From Leyella stercorea (GTDB lineage: Bacteria > Bacteroidota > Bacteroidia > Bacteroidales > Bacteroidaceae), in NCBI RefSeq assembly GCF_021531655.1, contig NZ_JADYUF010000005.1, positions 41,048 through 105,047 of the forward strand: 64,000 bases of DNA, written 5' to 3'. Positions within the stretch are counted from its first letter, which is position 1; every line of letters begins with the position of its first letter. A model generated the notes under the pieces. The model saw only the letters and a list, made by a program, of their open reading frames with translations. It ran no database searches and was not told the origin of the DNA. Below, piece by piece: positions 40,287-47,339 of the stretch. Made by a program: the position numbers and the translations under genes.

Positions 40287-41348
40287 TTAAGCTTTAGCTA
40301 TATAGTCGGCAATCCACTGACCAACCTCAGCCGTACCGTACTGTGCGCCACCCTCAACCTGAATCTCAGGAGTACGTACGTTGGCATCAAGCGAAGCGTC
40401 AACAGCCTTACGTACAAGCGCTCCTTCCTCATTCAGTCCGAAATGTTCAAGAAGCATGGCTGCCGAAAGAATCTGTGCTACTGGGTTGGCAAGGTTCTTG
40501 CCTGCTGCCTGCGGCCATGAACCGTGTACCGGCTCAAACAACGGAGTGTGCTCGCCAAGCGAACTTGACGGCTGCAATCCCATTGAACCTGTGATGCAAG
40601 AAGTCTCGTCGGTAAGAATGTCGCCAAATGTATTCTCTGTAACGATAACGTCAAAGAAAGTAGGTTCGGTAAGCACGCGCATTGAGGCGTTGTCGATAAA
40701 CATATAGTCGGTGTTCACCTCAGGATACTGCGGTTCCATCTCCTTGGCAATCTGGCGCCACAGACGTGACGAAGCCAGAACGTTGGCCTTGTCAACAACG
40801 GTAAGGTGCTTGTTGCGCTTCATGGCAAACTCGAATGCAACCTTAAGGATGCGCTCTATCTCCGGACGGGTATAGATGTCGGTATCGTATGCCTTGTCGT
40901 TGTCCTGATACTTCTCGCCGAAATACATACCGCCAGTAAGCTCACGTATTACAACAAAGTCGGCACCCTTGAGCAATTCGTCCTTAAGGGGTGACTTGTG
41001 TAGAAGGCAGTCGAAAGTGGCAACTGGACGCACATTGGCAAACAATCCGAGCTTCTTGCGCATAGCCAGAAGGCCCTGCTCAGGACGTACCTTGGCAGTA
41101 GGATCGTTGTCGAAACGTGGATCGCCTACAGCTGCAAAGAGCACAGCATCGGCATTCAGACATGTCTGGAAAGTGTCTTCAGGGAAGGGGTCGCCCACTT
41201 CGTCAATGGCATGAGCTCCACAAATGGCTTCCTTAAAACTGAATTCGTGACCGAACTTTTCAGCCACAACCTTCATTACCTTCACACCTTCGGTCATAAT
41301 CTCGGGTCCGATACCGTCGCCGGGAAGTACAGCTATTGATAATTTCAT
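40287..41348 (-). CDS. leuB: 3-isopropylmalate dehydrogenase
   Basis: Oxidises and decarboxylates 3-isopropylmalate to 2-oxoisocaproate with NAD+, the last dedicated step before leucine transamination. 353 residues of the isocitrate/isopropylmalate dehydrogenase family. Motifs: [29 protein letters not shown] loop ([12 protein letters not shown]), [52 protein letters not shown] and the NAD-binding [20 protein letters not shown]. Last enzyme gene of the leu operon, 24 bases downstream of the citramalate/isopropylmalate synthase homologue. Confidence 0.96.
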
Positions 41349-41372: not shown

Positions 41373-42923
41373 TTATTTTGATTCTGAGTCTTGCAGTTGT
41401 TCCTGCTCCACGATGTTAAGCATCTTGATTGTAGCCTTGATTGCAGCTTCGGTCTGGTCGGCATCGAGTCCACGTGTACGCAGTATCTTCTCGCCGCTAC
41501 GCCATGTTATGACAGTCTGCACGAGTGCGTCTGTGCGTCCGCCAGGCGGTATTGACACGGCATAATTCTCAAGTGTTGGGAATGTGCGTCCAAGACGTTC
41601 GCGGTATATCTTGCGCATAGCCTTCACGAAAGCGTCATACTGTCCGTCGCCAAGAGCGTTGTCCTCATACTGCTTGCCGTCAATCTCCACCTTAACAGTT
41701 GCCATAGGGCGCAGTCCGTAGGCAAGCGACACCATATAGCTCACAAGCTTTATCTTGTCTTCGGGAGCCGAATGCTTCAGCACGTCGCTCACGATGAATG
41801 GCAGGTCTTCCTGAGTTACAATCTCCTTGCGGTCGCCCAGTTCGGTAATGCGTTGTGTCACACGACGTGTCTGTTCGGGAGTGAGTTCCAGTCCGAGCAG
41901 TTCCAGGTTCTTTGCGATGTTTGCCCTACCGCTATTCTTACCAAGTGCATACTCGCGCTTACGTCCGAAACGTTCAGGCACAAGATTGTTGCAGTAAAGG
42001 TTGTCCTTATTGTCGCCATCGGCATGAACACCAGCCACTTGCGTGAACACATTTTCGCCTACGATAGGCTGGTTCGGCGCAATGGCAATACCAGAATATC
42101 CCTCTACCAGTCGGCTTATTTCGCCCAATCGGTCTTCACGGATACTGGTTTCAATACCGAGCTGGTCTTTAAGTATAGCCTGCACGCTTGCAAGCGGGGC
42201 ATTGCCACAACGCTCACCCAGTCCGTTCACCGTGACATGCAGACCGCTTGCGCCACTCACCACAGCAGCCAACGAATTGGCTACGGCAAGGTCGTAGTCG
42301 TTATGTGCATGGAATTCGAAGTTGGTGTCGGGATAGCGCTCCACCATCTGGCCGAAATACTTCGTCACCTCCATAGGGTTGAGTATGCCCAATGTATCGG
42401 GCAGAAGGAAACGCTTGATTCCACTCTCCACGAGGGCGTCCATCATCTTGAACACATAGTCGGGCGAATCCTTCATGCCACTACTCCAATCCTCAAGATA
42501 CAGATTTACAGCCATACCCTTCTGCATGGCAAGGGTGAGCGACTCGTATATTCCGTCAATATGCTCTTCGGGAGTCTTCTTGAGCTGATGCGTACAATGC
42601 TTGAGCGAACCCTTTGCAAGCAGGTTTATAACCTTGCATCCGCATTCGTCAATCCAGTCGATTGACTTGCCACCATCGACAAAGCCCAACACTTCTACCC
42701 TATTCAGCTTGCCCACACTCTCGGCATAACGGCATATCATGCGCACAGCTTCCTTCTCACCCTCAGAGACACGTGCCGAAGCCACTTCTATACGATTCAC
42801 ATTGACATCGCCAAGAAGCATACGTGCCATCATGAGTTTCTCATGAGGAAGGAATGACACTCCGCTGGTCTGCTCGCCATCGCGGAGTGTACAGTCCATT
42901 ATTTCTATTGTTCTTGCTCCCAT
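41373..42923 (-). CDS. cimA: Second alpha-isopropylmalate synthase-family enzyme, probable (R)-citramalate synthase
   Basis: A 516-residue acetyl-CoA-dependent aldol condensation enzyme of the LeuA/CimA family. It has IEIMDCTLRDGEQTSGVSFL (metal Asp and Arg), RFLLPDTLGILNPMEVTKYF, FEFHAHNDYDLAVANSLAAV (HxH metal site), TVNGLGERCGNAPLASV and a C-terminal LeuA dimerisation/regulatory domain (about 385-515, with YAVSIPPGGRTDALVQTVIT). A true leuA is the first gene of the same operon, so this paralogue more likely condenses pyruvate and acetyl-CoA to citramalate for isoleucine, using LeuCD and LeuB for later steps. Sequence alone does not prove pyruvate specificity. The ATG at 42923 overlaps the leuD end by 19 bases; the ATG at 42899 would avoid the overlap. 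Confidence 0.82.
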   Translation of the reverse strand: MGARTIEIMDCTLRDGEQTSGVSFLPHEKLMMARMLLGDVNVNRIEVASARVSEGEKEAVRMICRYAESVGKLNRVEVLGFVDGGKSIDWIDECGCKVINLLAKGSLKHCTHQLKKTPEEHIDGIYESLTLAMQKGMAVNLYLEDWSSGMKDSPDYVFKMMDALVESGIKRFLLPDTLGILNPMEVTKYFGQMVERYPDTNFEFHAHNDYDLAVANSLAAVVSGASGLHVTVNGLGERCGNAPLASVQAILKDQLGIETSIREDRLGEISRLVEGYSGIAIAPNQPIVGENVFTQVAGVHADGDNKDNLYCNNLVPERFGRKREYALGKNSGRANIAKNLELLGLELTPEQTRRVTQRITELGDRKEIVTQEDLPFIVSDVLKHSAPEDKIKLVSYMVSLAYGLRPMATVKVEIDGKQYEDNALGDGQYDAFVKAMRKIYRERLGRTFPTLENYAVSIPPGGRTDALVQTVITWRSGEKILRTRGLDADQTEAAIKATIKMLNIVEQEQLQDSESK

Positions 42924-43492
42924 GCTTCAACCTTATCACGGTTCTGTACAAGGAAGTCTACGTCGTCGAGTCCGTTTTCAAGGCAATGCTTCTTGTATCC
43001 GTTTATCTCAAAATGCTCGCTCTTGCCTGTAGCGAGGTTTGTCACAGTCTGATTGGGCAGATCCACCTTCACCTCTGTCTTGTGGTCCTTGTCGATGCTG
43101 GCAAAGAGTTCCTTAAGGAATTCCTCGCTCACCACTACCGGCAGCACAAGATTGTTGAGTTCGTTGTTCTTGTGAATGTCGGCAAAGAACGAGCTGATGA
43201 CCACACGGAATCCGGCTCCGGCAATAGCCCAAGCTGCATGCTCGCGCGAAGAGCCCGAACCGAAGTTCTTACCTGCTACGAGTATCACTCCGCTATACGA
43301 CGGATCGTTCATAACGAAGTCGGGTTTGGGAGTACCGTCGGCATTATATCGCCAGTCGCGGAATAGGTTGTCGCCCATACCTTCCTTGTCGATAGCCTTA
43401 AGGAAGCGGGCTGGTATAATCTGGTCGGTATCCACATTCTCAAGTGGAAGTGGGATGCATGTGGAGGTTATAACGTTGAATTTCTGTTTCAT
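42905..43492 (-). CDS. leuD: 3-isopropylmalate dehydratase small subunit
   Basis: The swivel-domain subunit that joins LeuC to isomerise 2- to 3-isopropylmalate (and citramalate to methylmalate). 195 residues, the usual length. Key stretches: IPLPLENVDTDQIIPARFLK, the aconitase-like signature VAGKNFGSGSSREHAAWAIA, GFRVVISSFFADIHKNNELN and DLPNQTVTNLATGKSEHFEI. It lies 27 bases after leuC. Confidence 0.96.
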   Translation of the reverse strand: MKQKFNVITSTCIPLPLENVDTDQIIPARFLKAIDKEGMGDNLFRDWRYNADGTPKPDFVMNDPSYSGVILVAGKNFGSGSSREHAAWAIAGAGFRVVISSFFADIHKNNELNNLVLPVVVSEEFLKELFASIDKDHKTEVKVDLPNQTVTNLATGKSEHFEINGYKKHCLENGLDDVDFLVQNRDKVEAWEQEQ

Positions 43493-43519: not shown

Positions 43520-44917
43520 TTAGAACATGAGTTCTCTCGGGTCTGTTACCACTCCCGTAACTGCTGCTGCAGCTGCTACCAGAGGTGAAGCAAGGATGGT
43601 GCGTGAGCCTGGTCCCTGACGACCCTCAAAGTTACGGTTGGATGTCGATACCGAATACTTGCCTGCTGGTATCTTGTCATCGTTCATGGCAAGACATGCC
43701 GAGCAGCCCGGCTGGCGAATCTCGAAACCAGCTTCGGTAAGGACCTTGTCCAGTCCCTCCTCTCTAATCTGCTTGTCTACGAGCCATGAGCCCGGCACAA
43801 GCCATGCCGTAACGCCTTCTGCCTTATGGCGTCCCTTCACGATAGAGGCAAATGCACGGAAGTCTTCAATACGTCCGTTGGTGCAGGCACCGAGGAATAC
43901 ATAGTCAATCTTATGACCGAGAAGCTTCTCGCCTGGCTCAAATCCCATGTATGCAAGCGACTTCTTGAACGAAGCCTGACCAGCCTTGTCTATCTCATCG
44001 AGTGTCGGGATGGTCTCTGTAATACCGATACCCATACCAGGATTAGTGCCGTAAGTGATGCGCGGCTCTATGTCGGCAGCATCAAACACGAGTTCCTTGT
44101 CGAACACGGCATCGTCGCCACTCTTCAGAGTCTTCCAGTAAGCCACGGCCTTGTCCCAATCCTCGCCCTTAGGAGCATATTCGCGACCCTTGATATATTC
44201 GAATGTTGTCTCGTCGGGAGCAACAAATCCGCCACGCGCACCCATCTCGATAGAGAGGTTGCAGAGTGTGAGTCGGCCCTCCATAGACATGTCGCGCACT
44301 ACGTCGCCAGCATATTCAACGAAATATCCGGTAGCGCCCGAAGTGGTGAGTCGGCTCATCAGGTAGAGAGCTACATCCTTAGGCGTAACGCCCTTTGCCA
44401 ACTTTCCGTTGACGCTTATACGCATCGACTTCGGCTTGGTCTGCAGAATGCATTGTGAGGCCATAACCATCTCTACCTCAGAAGTTCCGATACCGAAAGC
44501 TACAGCACCCATAGCGCCATGGGTAGATGTGTGCGAGTCGCCACACACGATTGTCATACCTGGCAGAGAGAGACCCTTCTCCGGTCCTACAACGTGGATG
44601 ATACCGTTGTCCTTAGAGTTCATGGCGAAGTGTGTAACGCCGAAATCAGCAGCATTCTTAGCCAATGTGTCCACCTGACGCTTTGATACGGGGTCTTCAA
44701 TGGGCTTGTCCTGGTCGTGTGTAGGAGTGTTATGGTCGGGCATGCAGAATATGTGGTCGGGACGGAACATCTTGAGTCCGCGGGCACGCATGCCGGCAAA
44801 GGCTTGAGGCGAAGTCACCTCATGGCAGTAAAGACGGTCTATATACAATTGTGTAGGACCATCCTTGATCGTCTGCACAACATGCTTATCCCAGATTTTG
44901 TCGAATAATGTGTTCAT
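43520..44917 (-). CDS. leuC: 3-isopropylmalate dehydratase large subunit
   Basis: The [4Fe-4S] catalytic subunit of isopropylmalate isomerase. 465 residues. The cluster ligands sit in [16 protein letters not shown] and [16 protein letters not shown]; other signatures are [46 protein letters not shown] and [20 protein letters not shown]. It lies 68 bases downstream of leuA and is followed by leuD. Confidence 0.97.
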
Positions 44918-44985: not shown

Positions 44986-46488
44986 CTATTTCACGCGAAA
45001 CTTGTTGATACAGTCAATGTAAGCCTCAACAGAAGCCGTCACGATGTCGGTATTGGCTCCGAATCCGTAGTACACGCTTCCGTCGTACTCCACCTGCATG
45101 TGTACCTTGCCCACGTCGTCCGATCCCTTCGAGATGGCCTGGATTGTAAACTCCTTCAGGGTCATCTGCTTCTGAATGATCTTCTTGAGAGCCTTGATGG
45201 CAGCATCTACCGGACCGTTGCCCGTAGAAGCCTCTTCAAACTTCTGTCCTGAGATGTCGAGTCCGATGCTTGCCACACTCTTAACGCCCATGCCTGTAGT
45301 AACCTGCAGGAAGTCGAGCTTCACGGCGTGCGAAGCCTTGGCGTCAGCACCTGCCAACATGAGTATGTCATCGTCGTTGACCTCCTTCTTACGGTCGGCA
45401 AGCTTGAGGAACTGCTGGTAGATAGTGTCTATCTTCGACTCGTCGTCTATCTTCACACCCAGCACTCCGAGGCGATACTTCAAGGCGGCTCTGCCCGATC
45501 GTGCTGTCAGCACTATGCTGCCGCTGTCCAGACCTACATCCTTCGGGTCGATAATCTCGTATGTGCTAACATTCTTCAGCACTCCGTCCTGGTGGATGCC
45601 GCTACTGTGGGCGAATGCGTTACGACCCACAATGGCCTTGTTAGGCTGAACGGGCATGTTCATCAGGCTCGAAACCATGCGGCTTGTGGGGCAAATCTTT
45701 GTAGTGTTTATGTTGGTGTCAATATTGATGCCGTTGTGACACTTCAGAATCATGGCAATCTCTTCGAGCGAAGTGTTTCCCGCACGCTCACCGATACCAT
45801 TGATTGTCACCTCTACCTGACGCGCTCCGTTCAGCACTCCGCTCAGCGTATTGGCTGTGGCAAGACCCAAGTCGTTGTGGCAATGGGTTGAAAGTATGGC
45901 CTTGTCGATGTTATCCACATGCTCTATCAGATACTTTATTTTGGCTCCATACTCCTCGGGCAGACAGTAGCCCGTAGTGTCGGGAATGTTGATGACGGTA
46001 GCGCCAGCCTTGATGACAGCCTCAACCACACGTGCCAGATACTCGTTGTCGGTACGTCCGGCATCCTCGGCATAGAACTCTACGTCCTCTACATATCGCT
46101 TGGCATAGGCCACGGCACGAACGGCACGCTCTATTATCTCCTCACGGTTTGAGTGAAACTTATACTTGATGTGCGAATCTGACGTACCGATACCTGTATG
46201 GATGCGTCCGCGCTTGGCATACTTCAGAGCCTCGGCAGCACAATCTATGTCCTTCTCTACAGCACGTGTCAGAGCACAGATAGTTGGCCATGTCACAGCC
46301 TTTGAAATCTCAATGACCGAATTGAAGTCGCCCGGACTGGAAATAGGAAATCCTGCTTCAATCACGTCTACACCCAATTGCTCAAGCTGCTTTGCCACTT
46401 GTATCTTCTCAACGGTATTCAACTGGCATCCTGGCACCTGCTCGCCATCGCGGAGCGTAGTGTCAAAAATATACAATCTTTCACTCAT
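44986..46488 (-). CDS. leuA: 2-isopropylmalate synthase
   Basis: Condenses 2-oxoisovalerate with acetyl-CoA, the first committed step to leucine. 500 residues: a catalytic TIM barrel ([80 protein letters not shown]), then the linker with [16 protein letters not shown]. The C-terminal LeuA regulatory domain (about 375-500) normally binds leucine for feedback inhibition. First structural gene of the operon. Expression is probably also controlled by attenuation: the roughly 240-base leader contains an Ile/Leu-rich leader peptide (46615-46695) and a terminator (46521-46570). Confidence 0.96.
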
Positions 46489-46520: not shown

Positions 46521-46570
46521 GAAAAAACCTTTCACACTACCTTGTAGGGGTTAGTGAGAAAGGTTTTTCT
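46521..46570 (-). terminator. Attenuator terminator in the leuA leader
   Basis: On the minus strand AAAAACCTTTC-t-CACTA pairs with TAGTG-t-GAAAGGTTTTT, followed by a U-run, 33 bases before the leuA ATG. An alternative pairing exists: GGGGTAGTG at the end of the leader-peptide gene (46631-46623, minus strand) is complementary to CACTA(A)CCCC in the terminator's first arm (46556-46547), with one bulged A. The two structures exclude each other, as in classical amino-acid attenuators. Confidence 0.85.
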
Positions 46571-46614
46571 TGTCATCTGCTCATAAGAGAGACTGTATTG
46601 TTTGCGGCAACCTA

Positions 46615-46695
46615 TTAGCATACACTACCCCGTTCGACATTGTTCCAAAGTCGAATTCGAATAATAATGCTAATAATGTTGTACGACAAATTCAT
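46615..46695 (-). CDS. Leu operon leader peptide (26 aa, Ile/Leu-rich)
   Basis: A 26-codon frame from ATG at 46695 to TAA at 46615. The product begins MNLSYNIISIIIRIRLW and continues NNVERGSVC. Six isoleucines, two leucines and two valines make 10 of 26 codons branched-chain, clustered as I-I-S-I-I-I-R-I-R-L in the first half. It starts about 35 bases after the -7 element at 46736-46743 and precedes an intrinsic terminator by about 45 bases. A ribosome stalled at the Ile/Leu codons would leave the 3' end of the peptide gene free to pair with the terminator's first arm and let transcription enter leuA. The heavy Ile content fits an operon that also serves isoleucine through the citramalate synthase homologue. 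Confidence 0.8.
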   Translation of the reverse strand: MNLSYNIISIIIRIRLWNNVERGSVC

Positions 46696-46735
46696 ATTTA
46701 TAATATATTTATGGTGATACGTCTTATTTCGGTTA

Positions 46736-46743
46736 CAAAGGTA
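46736..46743 (-). promoter_or_regulatory. -7 element of the leu operon
   Basis: The minus strand reads TACCTTTG. It sets a leader of about 240 bases before leuA, long enough for the attenuator. Between here and the next gene (46945) no other feature was seen. Confidence 0.65.
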
Positions 46744-46944
46744 AGAAAATATCGGTAGCTCACAAATAATTTATCACTTTTTTTATCATATTTATTGCAT
46801 TTTGTTATGCCGTAGCACTTTCAAGTCCTCCTACACCTTATTATATAATAGAATATTACCAACTTTTACAAAGACTTTCTTATCCCGAACTCAGGTTACT
46901 AAGGTTAATATTCTCAACCTTTACATTAGACCCATGATATAGTT

Positions 46945-47190
46945 TCATGTCAGCAACCCTCCTTTTTTACGGCAAAAAGCAGCAAGTCCTTCTACTTGTT
47001 CCTCAAACGACAGAGTATGCAAAATGTTATAATGTCTCTCTGCATACTCTATTCCATCGTGCAGACTAACATATCGGAAAGCCTGCATATAGCTCAAACC
47101 GAAATGACGCGCAAACAGTTTTATGAGCATGATTATATATTCTATCTTATCGGCTATCATATCATATTTGGACAAACTACTTATGTTCAT
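46945..47190 (-). CDS. Small DUF3791-like protein
   Basis: An 81-residue protein from the ATG at 47190 (MNISSLSKYDMIADKIEYII). The pattern KIEYIIMLIKLFARHFGLSY, then RYVSLHDGIEYAERHYNILH, then TLSFEEQVEGLAAFCRKKGG resembles DUF3791 domain proteins: helical, about 70-80 residues, often encoded next to DUF3990 genes as candidate toxin-antitoxin or signalling pairs. No DUF3990 partner is seen here, so this may be an orphan. An in-frame upstream extension to 47289 is basic and Cys-containing and looks non-coding. Confidence 0.55.
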   Translation of the reverse strand: MNISSLSKYDMIADKIEYIIMLIKLFARHFGLSYMQAFRYVSLHDGIEYAERHYNILHTLSFEEQVEGLAAFCRKKGGLLT

Positions 47191-47339
47191 CTTCAAACGC
47201 AAATTTACGTTTTTTCCCCGACATTTACAAGTATTCTTACCATAATCTTTTGATTTAGAAGGAATGTTGCGCTCAGCCCATAAAGACACTTACCAAAGCA
47301 AGAATTATGAGCAAATTCCTAATTGTTCAATTCCAAATC

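Follow-up and report, generated by a model that had tools for sequence, protein, structure and literature searches.

What controls transcription of the leucine biosynthesis operon in the 64-kb window, the whole stretch of DNA analysed here? The operon begins with leuA and is encoded on the minus strand, as is the gene that lies upstream of its promoter:

44986..46488, minus strand: leuA, 2-isopropylmalate synthase, first gene of the operon (NF002086, 739 bits, cut-off 532)
43520..44917, minus strand: leuC (TIGR00170, 643 bits, cut-off 560)
42905..43492, minus strand: leuD (TIGR00171, 188 bits, cut-off 116)
41373..42923, minus strand: second leuA/cimA-type synthase gene, assignment uncertain (best model NF042433 CimA, 629 bits, below the cut-off of 950)
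40287..41348, minus strand: leuB (TIGR00169, 433 bits, cut-off 353)
46945..47289, minus strand: gene for a DUF3791 protein (PF12668), upstream of the leuA promoter

The preliminary description placed a citramalate synthase homologue in the operon. CimA was indeed the best model for the second synthase, but its score fell below the cut-off. The gene overlaps leuD by 19 nt (42905-42923).

Judged by its anatomy and by comparison with relatives, the element in front of leuA is very probably a ribosome-mediated transcription attenuator of the trp/leu type. Its parts are as follows:

46736..46766, minus strand: putative Bacteroidota-type promoter, with a -33 element TTTG (46766-46763), a spacing of 19 nt and a -7 element TACCTTTG (46743-46736)
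46615..46695, minus strand: leader peptide ORF MNLSYNIISIIIRIRLWNNVERGSVC, 26 codons and TAA
46608..46681, minus strand: 1:2 pause hairpin, Ile codons against the antiterminator strand, from the fold; this stem covaries in 59 leaders
46623..46631, minus strand: region 2, the antiterminator strand GGGGTAGTG, inside leader codons 22-25
46547..46568, minus strand: region 3, the arm common to the antiterminator (CACTAACCCC) and the terminator
46522..46569, minus strand: 3:4 intrinsic terminator and T run, with region 4 GGTAGTGTGAAAGG at 46541-46528

The -7 element described earlier is present before the leader ORF, and together with the -33 element it forms a promoter that we take to be of the Bacteroidota type. 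Of 58 related leader loci, 56 had both elements before the leader, and the other two had the -7 element only. The built-in promoter scan reported promoter-like sites no more often than expected by chance. The leader peptide has the composition claimed for it, with six Ile (codons 7, 8, 10, 11, 12 and 14, all ATT), two Leu (one TTG and one CTT) and two Val, and is a candidate translated ORF rich in codons for the end products of the operon. Among 17 leaders, 378, 216 and 394 differences fell at codon positions 1, 2 and 3, respectively, and 188 codon differences were synonymous versus 446 others, a pattern that gives no clear mark of constraint on coding.

The intrinsic terminator was also found where it had been described, 33 nt before the leuA ATG (46488). 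It has a predicted energy of -23.7 kcal/mol (z -4.9), and none of 200 shuffles was equally stable; the same held for the fold of the 221-nt leader (z -5.5, 0/200). The built-in terminator scan of this region of the window reported no terminator, presumably because the bulges and the loop lie outside its template. A segment in the last peptide codons had been described as complementary to the first terminator arm. This complementarity exists, as GGGGTAGTG can pair with CACTA(A)CCCC at 46556-46547, but the C run lies only partly in the terminator stem, the remainder being loop. The preliminary description lacked the 1:2 pause hairpin, formed by the Ile codons and the antiterminator strand. Since the Ile codons pair with the GGGGTAGTG stretch, the leader has the classical three helices, namely 1:2 (pause, blocking the antiterminator), 2:3 (antiterminator) and 3:4 (terminator), and the pause hairpin thereby completes a three-way switch of which two elements had been recognised before. 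The three helices are mutually exclusive in the window leader. Its own 2:3 helix is weak: 50 of 200 shuffles of the 101-nt antiterminator stretch folded equally well, and region 2 was matched in its pairing with the terminator arm by 26 of 300 shuffled leaders and 31 of 300 synonymous recodings. Taken alone, this pairing is not statistically exceptional, and its support comes from relatives.

Positions at which a ribosome would alter the fold were located by masked folding of the RNA made before region 4, assuming that the ribosome covers 15 nt upstream and 13 nt downstream of the first A-site base. In the window, a ribosome stalled at any of codons 5-17, which include all six Ile and Leu16, left a 9-bp 2:3 helix, and from codon 18 onward there was none; without a ribosome the leader formed 1:2. 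The control codons (Ile7, 8, 10, 11, 12 and 14, and Leu16) are thus placed such that a stalled ribosome frees region 2. Across 59 leaders, 2:3 formed in 56 with the ribosome stalled at the chosen Ile codon, and the terminator formed in all 59 full-length leaders, whether the RNA was unoccupied or had a ribosome on the stop codon. The finished terminator prevailed in 37 of the 59 full-length leaders despite a ribosome stalled at Ile, so that control must be kinetic; the same holds for the window, because its terminator is more stable than 2:3 once region 4 has been made. In nascent RNA, a ribosome on the stop codon left some 2:3 pairing in 32/59 leaders; in 38/59 the untranslated leader kept 2:3 or would pair it first.

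We propose that the ribosome would track RNA polymerase through the leader. A shortage of charged Ile- or Leu-tRNA would make the ribosome stall in codons 5-17 and cover region 1; region 2 would then be free to capture region 3, the terminator would be blocked, and leuACD-cimA-leuB would be transcribed. With ample supply, the ribosome would reach the stop codon and cover region 2, and 3:4 would terminate transcription. If the leader were not translated, 1:2 would form, with termination by default. The earlier proposal that a stall frees the antiterminator and completion allows termination is supported by the masked folding and also by the conservation and operon-specific codon content described below.

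Conservation was assessed at the 80 best-matching related leuA loci, which are the best 80 of a longer list from a LeuA scan of genome contigs; the nearest, in a Prevotellaceae MAG, has a LeuA 92% identical to that of the window. Lack of conservation of the peptide or stems had been named in advance as one outcome that would count against the attenuator, yet a leader, region 2 and terminator were found at 58 of the 80 loci. The leader was degenerate or truncated at a contig end in six (L010, L020, L040, L054, L058 and L065) and absent from 16 (L006, L009, L017, L026, L038, L042, L046-L048, L050, L055, L056, L059, L064, L074 and L076), which indicates that it is dispensable. A -7-like match was located 43 to 90 nt before leuA in 14 of the 16 leaderless loci. 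The leuC gene lay within the 3-kb flanks of all 58 leader loci and all 16 leaderless loci, on the opposite strand in one of the latter (L056). At L010 a stop codon immediately follows the Ile/Leu codons upstream of leuA; L058 retains the terminator, immediately preceded by the promoter, and a leader ORF was not seen there. By DNA similarity, the window leader gave just 23-33 nt matches against 100 genomes of the genus, in four of them.

The 58 leaders and that of the window made up a 59-leader set, the other 22 loci (16 leaderless, six degenerate or cut) being dropped. The peptides share a core I-I-I-x-I-R-L....G-S-(D/E)-K, with variants, in which region 2 (GGAAGTGA) coincides with the G-S codons and pairs with TCACTTCC of region 3. 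At three loci (L016, L057 and L075) the frame over region 2 differs and the bases are kept; region 2 is therefore conserved as RNA. The window has a matched set of its own, in which regions 2 and 4 both read GGTAGTG and region 3 reads CACTAACC; its relatives mostly have GGAAGTG, CACTTCC and (A)GTG in regions 2, 3 and 4.

The preliminary description called for covariation in both stems. For the terminator this was clear, with 94.2% of cells paired versus 89.3% in shuffles and 36 double changes versus 10.7, a number reached by none of 500 shuffles. The 1:2 stem behaved likewise (84.2% paired versus 79.5%; 24 double changes versus 7.3; 0/500). For the 2:3 stem, in an alignment in which region 2 of the window is shifted, 93.0% of cells were paired versus 92.1% in shuffles (7/500 as high) and the 59 near-relative leaders had zero double changes, since the strands of near relatives hardly vary. 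A folding criterion of at least five pairs was non-discriminating, being reached by 57/59 leaders, 916/1180 shuffles and 719/1180 recodings, and was replaced by duplex energies. By this measure, at most 15 of 300 mononucleotide shuffles matched the 2:3 duplex in 50 of the 59 leaders, and at most 15 of 300 synonymous recodings did so in 46. Region 2 and region 3 of the same leader also paired better than combinations with region 2 of other leaders (mean percentile 0.29 in 106 leaders, p 2.5e-12, where 0.5 means no covariation; related rows are not independent, L112 and L119 are included with wrongly set arms, and L146 and L147 are left out). The 47 distant leaders alone gave a mean percentile of 0.285 (p 2.6e-6), and in the distant L126, L128 and L143 regions 2, 3 and 4 differ together. 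Covariation of 2:3 was thus found in distant leaders but not in near ones. For the window, region 2 of every other leader paired better than its own when the arm was set to 15 nt, an effect of that limit, as only 8 to 19 of the 58 others did so with arms of 18-22 nt.

Codon content follows the operon, leuA or ilvD. In leuA leaders of the order-level set, Val made up 10 of 640 residues and VV occurred in 0/29, versus 97 of 562 residues and 17/26 in ilvD leaders; among the first 59 leuA leaders 13 had VV, in every case 3' of the control region. Runs of Val codons were seen in ilvD leaders L129 (seven), L139, L149, L148 and L155, found by a model built from leuA leaders. By masked folding, Ile and Leu accounted for 463 of 920 responsive codons versus 38 of 599 others, and Val for 8/920 versus 93/599; this count omits L131, L146 and L147, and responsive codons are mostly N-terminal, so that the Ile/Leu excess is confounded with position. 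Codon choice was also skewed in the 59 leaders: Ile was ATT in 224 of 275 cases (81%) versus 1033 of 3227 (32%) in leuA genes, and Leu was CTA in 70 of 226 (31%) versus 37 of 2562 (1.4%). On this evidence Leu codons would count in leader control besides Ile. According to a theoretical study, sensitive attenuators call for particular, sparingly used regulatory codons (PMC1183508).

These data bear on a ribosome-independent attenuator, in which a protein or small molecule would bind the conserved strands CCTTTCTCACTTCC / GGAAGTGA and pick the terminator or the antiterminator, the ORF being incidental. Such a ligand would account for a region 3 sequence that is more conserved than pairing alone seems to need, and for a region 2 that is kept where the peptide end differs. 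However, it leaves unexplained the runs of Ile and Leu codons, with their bias towards ATT and CTA, as well as the Val runs of the ilvD leaders, and the joint change of regions 2, 3 and 4 in distant leaders also speaks against it. We therefore regard it as improbable and retain the ribosome-mediated attenuator.

How widely the leader occurs was examined with two covariance models built from the 59-leader set, R1 from 44 leaders including that of the window and R2 from 43 without it. R2 found the window leader with 44.9 bits (E 2.6e-8), the top of two matches in 64 kb; the other (E 0.0073) covered the same terminator from the opposite strand. At E up to 1, R1 matched eight of eight genomes that carry known loci, each of them with a best match at E 1.4e-8 or below. 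At E up to 0.01, matches occurred in 57 of 100 genomes from the genus to which L001 belongs, in 44 of 198 from the order and in 18 of 198 from the class. The order-level search gave 60 rows, of which 30 were before leuA (one, from G003, being a training leader) and 26 before ilvD; the other four were before asnA (L154) and a TPR protein gene (L146) and two opposite-strand matches overlapping a leader. It should be noted that the gene names come from motifs in the first downstream ORF, with NCBIfam or Pfam applied to two ilvD genes and to the asnA (L154) and TPR (L146) genes. The 22 class-level rows comprised six before leuA, three before ilvD, four before ilvB or ilvN-like genes, one before hisG and one beside an ilvN-like gene; the remaining seven are likely chance matches, as no amino-acid gene was seen. 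The window leader is therefore a member of a proposed, unlisted Bacteroidales leu/ilv RNA family, which Prevotella and its relatives share. Because one model finds both, the leaders before leuA and ilvD in Bacteroidales may be paralogous.

A region 3 core CCTTTCTCA is common to many leuA and ilvD leaders, as would be expected if other leaders were additionally regulated in trans by the terminated leader RNA or by the peptide. In one genome (G037), however, the cores differ, being CCATTCTCAG before leuA (L126) and CCTTTCTCAC before ilvD (L134), which lends no support to a match being required, and the cis anatomy suffices; action in trans is accordingly very improbable. That the hairpin is simply the ordinary terminator of the upstream DUF3791 unit, with a chance ORF before leuA, is hardly credible, for although the DUF3791 ORF shares its strand with leuA and its end lies ~375 nt before the terminator stem, the promoter sits between that gene and the terminator, and a similar peptide, hairpins and terminator precede leuA at 58 of the 80 loci.

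The ribosome-mediated attenuator has close counterparts elsewhere. The enterobacterial leu attenuator (leuL; RF00512) consists of a leader peptide, pause hairpin, antiterminator and terminator, and likewise has end-product codons and these structures before leuA. Unlike RF00512, the window element has Ile and Leu control codons, a putative Bacteroidota promoter and a cimA-like gene in its operon. The E. coli ilvGMEDA and ilvB attenuators, which use Ile, Leu and Val leader codons as control, also place branched-chain synthesis under leader codons, a likeness drawn by description only. The Bacteroid-trp motif (RF01692), which probably acts on the trp operon, is a Bacteroidetes motif too, but its model had no match in the window. 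When the region was compared with Rfam (E up to 5), just two chance matches turned up, and none to RF00512, RF00230 (T-box) or RF01692.

Leader-peptide attenuation had been called little described in Bacteroidales. This is fair, with the qualification that attenuators have been suggested in Flavobacterium and that Bacteroid-trp is in Rfam; a survey table gives it as a probably cis-regulatory Bacteroidetes motif (PMC2864571). For Flavobacterium psychrophilum, the section consulted reports strong indications that leader peptides control amino-acid operons by attenuation, including conserved, structured 5' elements of pheA and hisG without Rfam hits (PMC9723704). Phylum, proposed mechanism and the type of operon are the same as here; unlike the present case, that section has no leuA or ilvD leader, covariation or Bacteroidales (PMC9723704). 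Long 5' UTRs with short ORFs resembling leader peptides have been described in B. thetaiotaomicron (PMC7366714). In the main-text portions seen, a 2010 survey describes leader peptides as known from Proteobacteria and Actinobacteria only, adds some in Firmicutes and makes no mention of Bacteroidetes (PMC2965389), and another study places the origin of four Rfam amino-acid leaders in gamma-proteobacteria (PMC3766115). No description of a leuA/ilvD leader family was found among open-licence PMC papers. The abstract of Vitreschak et al. from 2004 reportedly lists candidates also in Bacteroidetes/Chlorobi. The kind of control would thus be a known one, classical ribosome-mediated attenuation already suggested in the phylum, and the novelty would lie in the unlisted leu/ilv RNA family and, as a side observation, in Asn-run leaders before asnA.

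Other candidate leaders in Bacteroidota came from weak model matches and their follow-up. The Phocaeicola genome of L060 has a Phe-rich leader before pheA (L090; prephenate dehydratase by Pfam, slightly under the NCBIfam cut-off) and an Ile/Leu/Val leader before ilvD (L096, named by motif). Leaders with HHHH before hisG (L192), with VVVVV before ilvB (L195, and L201 by the same protein start) and with an Ile run before a gene for the acetolactate synthase small subunit (L193) were also observed.

Leaders with Asn runs before asnA, often ending ..NNNNNNCPP and stop and followed by alternative helices and a terminator, were seen at L231, L236-L240 and L245-L248, and also at L233 and L235. Within one family (47 genomes), an NNN test found them at 10 of 15 asnA loci, seven in the N5-6 C P P form; of the remaining loci, L243 and L249 are Asn-rich, L241 has none, and L242 and L244 were not judgeable. 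All seven asnA leaders that were folded had a pause hairpin, an alternative upstream partner of the arm (not necessarily region 2) with the ribosome stalled at the Asn run, and a terminator when complete; in three of the seven, at least five arm bases stayed paired upstream with the ribosome at the stop codon. In the order-level sample, asnA was present in 30 of 80 genomes, and among the 30 loci Asn runs occurred in three (L231, L233 and L235), a single NNN without a clear terminator in L219, and at most 51 nt of upstream sequence in five. The Asn-run leaders are a possible asparagine class of leader-peptide attenuator, a candidate for which our literature search found no paper on such leaders before asnA.

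Taken as a whole, the comparison makes it likely that a vertically inherited RNA family without an Rfam 15 match controls leuA and paralogous ilvD in many Bacteroidales, and that Bacteroidota widely use leader-peptide attenuation, including an asparagine class (often Asn6-Cys-Pro-Pro before asnA, sometimes in tandem). Bacteroidota mostly start translation without Shine-Dalgarno sequences. If the proposal is true, transcription and translation are coupled in this phylum, and as the switch should work only with close tracking of RNA polymerase by the ribosome, the leader would be a natural probe of such tracking. The leu/ilv family would also provide a defined, testable branched-chain amino acid switch in common gut and rumen bacteria.

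Tandem arrangements were observed at several loci. Two leader units lie before ilvD in L140 (model matches at 770-889 and 929-1043). Before asnA, L248 has an extra upstream terminator only, and tandem leaders are present in L233, L235 and L247.
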